The notes beneath the pieces were generated by a model. It was not told the DNA's origin. It did no database searches and saw only the letters and a list, made by a program, of their open reading frames with translations. A DNA stretch of 64,000 nt, taken from Thermoplasmatota archaeon. Lineage in GTDB: Archaea; Thermoplasmatota; Poseidoniia; Poseidoniales; Thalassarchaeaceae. Shown here piece after piece: positions 3,208 to 5,063 of this stretch. The position numbers and the translations under genes were made by a program. How positions within the stretch are numbered: the stretch's first letter is position 1; each line of letters starts with the position of its first letter. The stretch spans positions 1 through 64,000 of the forward strand of contig JAURCP010000003.1 of assembly GCA_030828405.1 (NCBI GenBank), read 5' to 3'.

Positions 3208-3687
3208 TTATTTTTGTACTCTAAGAGTTTCATAAATCTCTGATAATCTCTCCATGGTTCCCTTTAACTCATATCTTATGTTTTGGCGCACATTACGATG
3301 TACAATTTCTTCTAACTGACGATCTAGACTTCTAAGAATCGCTCTATGTTCAGAATCGCTGAGTTCAAACACTTTCCTCAAATATGCTACGATTCTTAAA
3401 TCATCATCAGTTTTATCAGTGTGGATGAGAAATGTTTCTAAAACTTGTTCATAAGTTGAGATTTTTTCACTACTGGTCAAAGGTATGCCTAATTCAATGT
3501 CGACAGCCTCAATTATTGAATCATATATCATTTTTGGCTCATCATCACTCAATCTCAAAGCCCTCGCAAGTTTTGTAATCAATCTCTTTTCACCAAATGT
3601 AAGGTTTCCATCATTGAGAGCAAGACTGACGACTCCTCGAAAAACTACTCGCCTATCCGAGGAGGGTTCAACCATGAACTTCGTCAA
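3208..3687 (-). CDS. TerB-like helical domain protein (tentative)
   Basis: VSLALNDGNLTFGEKRLITKLARALRLSDDE resembles TerB/DnaJ-associated acidic helical domains. Confidence 0.5.
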   Translation of the reverse strand: MTKFMVEPSSDRRVVFRGVVSLALNDGNLTFGEKRLITKLARALRLSDDEPKMIYDSIIEAVDIELGIPLTSSEKISTYEQVLETFLIHTDKTDDDLRIVAYLRKVFELSDSEHRAILRSLDRQLEEIVHRNVRQNIRYELKGTMERLSEIYETLRVQK

Positions 3688-3762
3688 CGGTTCTATGACT
3701 TAATCTCTATCATCATGCGATATTATTGATAATTCCTCTATATTCATAGGAGCATTCATGAA

Positions 3763-3888
3763 GGGTGTAACCGCGGGCACTGGTTGGTAATCAGCCACAC
3801 TCGCGGGCGTTTTGCGCCCATCCAACCCAGAAACCTACTAGGTAATTGGGGGTGAAGCCCTCTAGTTGGGCCGAAAACCGGAAAGGAA
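3763..3888 (+). promoter_or_regulatory. Structured 5' leader upstream of dnaG (candidate RNA element)
   Basis: Complementary segments CCGCG(3771-3775)/CGCGG(3802-3806), GGTTG/CAGCC, GGGCG(3805-3809)/CGCCC(3815-3819), CCAAC(3822-3826)/GTTGG(3865-3869), GGGGG(3848-3852)/CCCTC(3858-3862). GC-rich relative to surroundings. Confidence 0.45.
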
Positions 3889-3893
3889 TTATT

Positions 3894-5063
3894 ATGTCAA
3901 ATACAGAAGGAAAATATATCATACACGCAACAATTCGTTGTGACGGCACAGTCGCCAGAAAAGACGTCGTAGGGGCCATATTTGGCCAAACCGAGGGTCT
4001 TTTAGGAGACCAGTTACAACTTAGAAAATTACAAAGAACAGGCCGTATCGGGCATGTCGATGTAACACTGAATCAGAACAAGGGGAAAGTGCAAGGAGAA
4101 ATCTCACTCTCTTCTTCTATTGATCAGGTTAGTACGGCAGTCATTGGCGCAGCATTAGAAACAATAGATAGAATAGGTCCATGCAAGGCAGTTATCAAGG
4201 TTAAAGCAATTGAGAATATCAGATCTGCAAAGCGAGAAAATGTGATTGATCGTGCTAAAGCACTATTATTGAACATGGTTAACTCAGGCCAAGATGAATC
4301 TAAGAACATATTAGAAGAAGTACGTTCAGTACTAACTTTGGACACTGAGAAAGATATTTCTGGAATGACAGCAGGACCAAAAGTTTCAGATAGCAGTGCT
4401 ATTATAATTGTTGAAGGACGAAATGACGTTAGAAATTTACTAAAGTTTGGCATTAAAAACGCTATAGCAACAATGGGTTCTGGAATACAAGACGAATTGA
4501 TAGCACTTGCTAAATCGAAAACCACAGTCACTGCCTTCGTCGATGGTGATAGAGGTGGAAAACTTCTGTTAATGGAACTTAGCGGCAAATTAGGCAAATC
4601 ATTAACGCACGTTGCTTTAGCACCTCAAAGCCGTGAAGTTGAGCATCTAGAAGGAAAAGTAATCACTAAATGCCTAGGGCAGAAAGAACTTGCAAACAAA
4701 GTAGTTTCTCGTATACAATCAGATTTAGCGAAAGAAGATGATGCTGCTGTAGGGCGTGGAGAAGAAATTCTCGAAGCACCTGAAGAAATCAAAGGCTGGG
4801 CTGAAATGTTAGAGGGCTTGAAAAGAAACCAAGCAGTCATTATAAATGAAGATGGATCTGGTAGCGAACCAATTGGTGCTAGTTCTTTGGAATCAAAGCT
4901 TGAAGAATCTGAAGGAGCAAAAGGTCTCGTTTTTGCCGGAAAAGTAACAGAAAGAATTTTCACTTTAGCTGCCGGTGCTGGTATCGATAGCGTCGTAGCA
5001 TCTTCAGTTGGAAAAGTAACTAGAAAATCCGGAGTACAGGCTTACTCAGCATCTGACATGTAA
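3894..5063 (+). CDS. dnaG: DNA primase DnaG, archaeal type (the ORF track start at 3846 is probably over-extended)
   Basis: MSNTEGKYIIHATIRCDGTVARKDVVGAIFGQTEGLLGDQLQLRKLQ...; TOPRIM motif IIVEGRNDV and AFVDGDRGG. ATG at 3894 follows a Shine-Dalgarno-like GGAAAGGA. Confidence 0.93.
   Translation: MSNTEGKYIIHATIRCDGTVARKDVVGAIFGQTEGLLGDQLQLRKLQRTGRIGHVDVTLNQNKGKVQGEISLSSSIDQVSTAVIGAALETIDRIGPCKAVIKVKAIENIRSAKRENVIDRAKALLLNMVNSGQDESKNILEEVRSVLTLDTEKDISGMTAGPKVSDSSAIIIVEGRNDVRNLLKFGIKNAIATMGSGIQDELIALAKSKTTVTAFVDGDRGGKLLLMELSGKLGKSLTHVALAPQSREVEHLEGKVITKCLGQKELANKVVSRIQSDLAKEDDAAVGRGEEILEAPEEIKGWAEMLEGLKRNQAVIINEDGSGSEPIGASSLESKLEESEGAKGLVFAGKVTERIFTLAAGAGIDSVVASSVGKVTRKSGVQAYSASDM

Follow-up and report, generated by a model that had tools for sequence, protein, structure and literature searches.

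dnaG and its translation start

What is the GC-rich, seemingly structured stretch that lies directly upstream of dnaG in this archaeal genome: a cis-regulatory RNA, a small RNA that happens to sit beside the gene, or part of the coding sequence? The DNA analyzed here (the window, 64,000 nucleotides) is contig C32 of a 1.4-Mb genome that is 81% complete. The gene, at 3894 to 5063 on the + strand, encodes archaeal DnaG with its Toprim domain (NCBIfam NF003108, 358 bits; Toprim match), a protein that is conserved in archaea and whose role, as primase or exosome subunit, is debated. The initial annotation read dnaG from ATG 3894 and considered a start at TTG 3846, which would turn part of the leader into coding sequence. 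Relatives keep the start ATG and a Shine-Dalgarno (SD) sequence at the downstream start, and 1-nt indels located between TTG 3846 and ATG 3894 in members of the genus break the TTG frame; the TTG start, and with it a coding extension, was therefore rejected. A leader peptide from ATG 3758 (MKGVTAGTGW) was discarded as well: the ATG is missing in other genera and lies upstream of the predicted transcription start.

The divergent open reading frame (ORF) upstream of dnaG in the window (3208 to 3687, − strand; 159 amino acids) gave a marginal Pfam match to the ENT domain, otherwise known from eukaryotes (29.9 against a cutoff of 28.5), and no match in an NCBIfam search.

Conservation of the leader within the order

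The order comprises two families (f1 and f2) and 22 genera. Of its 293 genomes, 265 yielded a dnaG gene; the upstream regions of about 130 genomes of the order, plus 13 more, were compared. The element precedes dnaG in every f1 genus examined (g1 to g11), usually as a 5′ hairpin followed by a core, a hairpin termed P3, further hairpins, the SD, and the ATG. The f1 core reads CACACUCGCGGG in the window and UCACGCUCACC and like forms elsewhere. Leaders of f2 are more diverged; their core, UUCACAUUCAC or AUUCAC(R), and P3 persist, as does a long-range helix, P1, in several genera.

A covariance model, R1, was trained on 46 f1 sequences, including that of the window, where it matches 3779 to 3887 on the + strand (88 bits; E = 4e-18), the one match in that genome. 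A search of 194 genomes with R1 matched 64, each at one place and in 64 of 64 cases directly before dnaG; the sole additional signal was one weak antisense echo at the same dnaG place. The model does not reach f2 and the f1 genera g5, g7, g9, and g11, which are too diverged. Among some relatives the gene upstream of dnaG varies (a divergent ORF in L002, a codirectional one in L020), indicating that the element tracks dnaG and not its neighborhood.

The leader thus shows the constant association with one downstream gene expected of a cis-regulatory mRNA leader. Its single copy, its constant adjacency to dnaG, its near-fixed spacing to SD and ATG, and its variable upstream neighbor bear out the suggestion, made from the window by itself, of a cis-regulatory RNA; the other suggestion, a separate small RNA merely colocated with dnaG, is less likely. 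On these sequence comparisons, a cis-regulatory function is very probable, and the retention of the leader over the whole order indicates that DnaG levels are under RNA control.

Secondary structure of the leader

Taken alone, the 131-nt leader of the window is only a little more stable than shuffled versions of itself (z = −2.1; 6 of 200 shuffles), and RNAalifold, given 30 naively aligned sequences, did not recover the structure. The individual helices described here are all on the + strand. The hairpin P3 (GGGCG-UUUUG-CGCCC, 3805 to 3819) is paired in 98.5% of cells, and three of its pairs are changed on both sides, with GC-to-AU double changes. Just 5′ of it lies the conserved core CACACUCGC (3796 to 3804), which carries an order-wide UCAC/CUC(R)C motif; in alignments A1 and A2, its A, T, and C are invariant or nearly so, as are the Gs that open P3. 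The hairpin P4 (3826 to 3850; CCCA/UGGG with an inner ACCU/AGGU) has moderate support, its inner stem being ACC/GGU in the window and GCC/GGC in most relatives. In a joint test of three stems, pairing stood at 88% and fell to around one-half or lower once the partners were slid. The 5′-terminal hairpin, P2 (GGTTG-GTAAT-CAGCC, 3782 to 3796), is part of the minimum-free-energy fold of the window's leader and, across genera, scored above shuffled sequences (z = −6.5). The SD region GGAAAGGA (3880 to 3887) is followed by ATG 3894, and in relatives, too, the SD is kept a few nucleotides before the ATG.

The best long-range helix is P1, which the initial annotation had not listed. Its 5′ strand (3784 to 3796) consists of UUGGU (3784 to 3788), UC (3791 to 3792), and GCC (3794 to 3796), and its 3′ strand (3869 to 3881) of GGC (3869 to 3871), GA (3873 to 3874), and ACCGG (3877 to 3881), adjoining the SD; in representative folds the end of P1 directly abuts the SD. 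Cognate P1 duplexes have a mean of −18.1 kcal/mol, compared with −12.7 kcal/mol when strands are swapped between genera, a difference reached in 0 of 20,000 permutations. Against dinucleotide shuffles of both strands, P1 scored z = −9.9 across 16 genera, with 24 of 43 sequences individually significant at 5%, and when eleven segment pairs were compared across seven f1 genera, significance was confined to the P1-type pairs (A-C, z = −11.1; B-C, −7.9; B-T3, −5.7). The sequence of P1 changes by genus while its pairing is kept, as UGAAC/GUUCG (g2), UGCAG/CUGCA (g3), and UUGCUU/AAGCAA (g4); further strand pairs are UUACAGG/CCUGUGUAA (g5), CGAGUCA/UGACUCG (g9), and GUUCACAUCCAA/UUGGAUUUGAAU (g15). 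These comparisons identify P1, P2, and P3 as a conserved predicted secondary structure with compensatory change.

P1 and P2 are mutually exclusive because both use the same 5′ nucleotides. In the window the P2 state is the predicted minimum (−36.6), and a fold with P1 forced lies 1.6 kcal/mol higher. The window's own P1 is weak, with 184 of 300 shuffles equally good; not being significant alone, it depends on the relatives. P1 occurs without P2 in g15, and P2 is only weak in g4, g8, and g10, so a switch between the two may not be universal. An anti-SD-like core that would sequester the SD (L179, AUCACCUC) was also considered and dropped, as it is found in a few families and is absent from f1.

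All the complementary segments named for 3763 to 3893 in the initial annotation are present in the sequence, and two of the five helices built from them, GGTTG/CAGCC (P2) and GGGCG/CGCCC (P3), hold up across genera. The other three do not: CCGCG/CGCGG is not conserved and falls 5′ of the point where the transcript is predicted to begin, CCAAC/GTTGG (post-T3) is at chance (z = −1.0), and so is GGGGG/CCCTC (M-T3; z = −0.4), which had been placed just before the SD. The proposed GTGT/ACAC pseudoknot is likewise not conserved and lies upstream of the predicted start. Lack of covariation across relatives had been named as grounds for abandoning the idea of a structured RNA; compensatory changes are present in P3. 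The original observation is accordingly confirmed in part, in that the alignments point to a conserved structured RNA directly 5′ of dnaG, with a partly different anatomy.

A probable clade promoter box and the predicted RNA 5′ end

The box TTCATGAA (3755 to 3762, + strand) has the type and spacing shared by what appears to be the TATA-like element of this clade. Its consensus is (G)GNNTTCA(NN)AA(GG), and in f1, wherever it is cleanly located, its TTC starts 38 to 44 nt upstream of the core. An equivalent box occurs ~31 to 32 nt upstream of the RNase P RNA 5′ end in five of six cases checked and also upstream of the tRNA-Cys gene of the window. Since it is found before these genes as well, TTCA(NN)AA is probably the promoter element that the clade uses in place of a classic TATA box. 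The RNase P loci compared are L132 to L137.

By analogy with the RNase P RNA genes, adding ~31 nt to the box predicts transcription to start at 3783 to 3787 (+ strand), give or take a few nucleotides. The dnaG mRNA would then begin near 3785, giving a structured leader of ~105 nt; in other genera, the same rule falls on the first nucleotides of P1/P2.

A GTCGG motif was seen ~10 nt upstream of the predicted dnaG start in genera of both families (e.g., L020, L022, and L059). It is absent in the window, and none was seen upstream of RNase P RNA; at dnaG promoters, this motif may be an operator.

Relation to known RNAs

That the leader belongs to no recognized family, as first supposed, was borne out by the Rfam comparison proposed as a check. 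Rfam 15 scans of the window and its relatives, at gathering and permissive thresholds, gave no family matching the leader, and on the RNA's own strand no match was found within the leader at E values up to 10. Archaeal RNase P RNA (RF00373) and archaeal SRP RNA (RF01857) were eliminated as identities for it: the leader matches neither, the true RNase P RNA lies elsewhere above the cutoff in 13 of 15 genomes, and the true SRP RNA lies elsewhere in the window's genome (G000) and three others. In the window's genome, only part of the RNase P RNA is present, at the edge of a contig (G000:C6:7-93; 43 bits), probably reflecting an assembly gap.

A search of the literature and Rfam for a leader upstream of archaeal dnaG found none. 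The dnaG leader RNA is real and apparently undescribed, and no chance fold. To our knowledge, archaea have yielded few examples of cis-regulatory RNAs. Genes for RNA-binding proteins can carry autogenous mRNA leaders, as ribosomal-protein genes do; such leaders are known from bacteria and, in the case of L1, from archaea. The dnaG leader resembles them in being a structured 5′ untranslated region before the gene for an RNA-binding protein, with a single target and putative control near the SD. It differs in that dnaG is not a ribosomal-protein gene; DnaG or the exosome is a candidate regulator, and any mimicry of a known rRNA site would be hypothetical. Among archaeal structured RNA candidates, the flpD motif of Euryarchaeota (RF01737) was, like the leader, recognized by comparative genomics (PMC2864571), but the leader does not match it.

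dnaG leaders beyond the order

The comparison also took in the DNA preceding dnaG in about 30 further families and in named genomes that a DnaG search returned. A long helix joining the 5′ part of the leader to just before the SD was found in Aciduliprofundum/DHVE2, Methanomassiliicoccales, several uncultured Thermoplasmatota families, and Hydrothermarchaeota/Pyrohabitans, often as G(G)AAAAA/UUUUUCC or AAUAGCAC/GUGCUAUU. Of 103 leaders, 18 (13 from the order itself) had a P1-like helix that no more than 1 in 100 shuffles matched; by chance, one or two such leaders would be expected. The element is missing from the dnaG leaders of families f5, f19, and f27 of the phylum.

In the wider-phylum leaders, the stretch 3′ of the closing helix's 5′ strand is occupied by UCAY repeats. 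Among 68 leaders from outside the order, UCAC ranked first of the 256 tetramers (93 occurrences compared with 40; z = 9.9) and UCAU ranked fourth, and 15 of the 68 had at least four UCAY within 40 nt, compared with 0.5 expected; because the leaders share descent, such figures overstate independence. The commonest UCAY spacing is 6 nt, as in AAUCACAAUCACAAUCAC (L186) and AUUCACAAAUCACCAUCACGAUCAUC (L214). We take the leaders of the wider phylum to be probable homologs of this order's RNA, a relationship suggested by position, P1-like closure, and UCAC and not by alignment. Since the RNA is kept by dnaG across an apparently marine order and occurs in simpler form in distant relatives, control of dnaG through its own mRNA is probably very long-standing.

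Two features of the distant closing helices were also recorded. In L255 and L258 (Pyrohabitans, Hydrothermarchaeota) the helix is exceptionally long, ~35 nt per strand, formed by CCCCAAAAAAGUGAUUGCUCACUGGAAUCUCACU and its complement. In L176, L179, L188, L194, and L248, from distant families, P1 is nearly constant as AAUAGCAC/GUGCUAUU, beyond what pairing needs.

Proposed mechanism and alternative explanations

Our best explanation, held with about even confidence, is that the ~105-nt leader controls dnaG translation through P1 and P2, with DnaG as the likeliest regulator. With P2 formed, the SD-proximal strand would be free and ribosomes would load; with P1 formed, the leader would be clamped against the SD and initiation would drop. 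We put this predicted switch, taken by itself, at about even odds. A protein reading the UCAC core would tip the balance, and the likeliest such protein would be DnaG, alone or in the exosome cap, feeding back on its own level. The N-terminal domain of archaeal DnaG binds RNA, with K6 and Y7 essential; the protein binds rRNA and is an exosome-cap subunit (PMC4227792). This, together with a K-Y pair that is invariant across our DnaG alignment and the exosome core genes found in the genomes, makes DnaG the first candidate. The DnaG of S. solfataricus favors poly(A) and not UCAC, which counts against DnaG as the UCAC reader (PMC4227792), and we advance feedback by DnaG or the exosome only tentatively. 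A broader version is somewhat more doubtful still: the element would be older than Thermoplasmatota and shared with Hydrothermarchaeota, its closing helix and UCAY repeats allowing the exosome cap (DnaG, Rrp4/Csl4) to set dnaG translation by the P1/P2 switch. If true, this would amount to a feedback loop, RNA-based and deeply conserved, acting on RNA decay in archaea. The leader also offers a handle on the partners of DnaG, since its binders likely belong to DnaG biology.

The main rival to DnaG as regulator is a KH-domain protein reading UCAY, in which case DnaG would be the target of another RNA-binding protein and not the regulator. YCAY is the classic KH motif, and the ranks of UCAC (first) and UCAU (fourth) among the tetramers and their usual 6-nt spacing fit such a reader. 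Candidates include exosome Rrp4, a NusA-like protein, and the Pno1/Dim2 factor, which handles the AUCACCUCC end of 16S rRNA. However, no target besides dnaG emerged: each of the 22 UCAY clusters inspected outside dnaG in five genomes is either inside an ORF or antisense to an ORF. The f1 core, moreover, is down to one UCAC plus CUCGC, and a literature search for a UCAC-binding archaeal KH protein found none. We regard sensing by such a protein as rather unlikely.

A riboswitch, in which a small metabolite bound to the core, between the P1 and P3 helices, would set P1 against P2, is improbable. The compact junction, the conserved core, the closing helix next to the SD, and the mutually exclusive pairings do resemble translational riboswitches. 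Unlike them, the leader has no Rfam match and always precedes the same, nonmetabolic gene; its core in the wider phylum is a 4-mer repeat and not a fixed pocket, and its internal hairpins are not conserved there.

We attach similarly little probability to a stand-alone small RNA gene beside dnaG, such as a guide or housekeeping RNA, or perhaps Tan1. The leader has a promoter box to itself and is strongly conserved in sequence, and an abundant noncoding RNA, Tan1, of 229 nt and with no known role, exists in marine group II archaea (PMC5069720). Both are structured RNAs from this group, but Tan1 (PMC5069720) is double the length of the ~105-nt leader. The RNase P and SRP RNAs are located elsewhere, the element always precedes dnaG, also where another gene lies upstream (L020 versus L002), its spacing into the SD is near fixed, and P1 stops at the SD.

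Finally, several genera have a DnaG frame that stays open 5′ of the gene, giving frames of up to about 500 amino acids, but the view that the leader codes for the protein's N terminus, or that its structure is a chance product of GC-rich DNA, is scarcely credible, refuted as it is by frame-breaking indels inside genera and by stems with compensatory changes, with SD and ATG kept at the downstream start.
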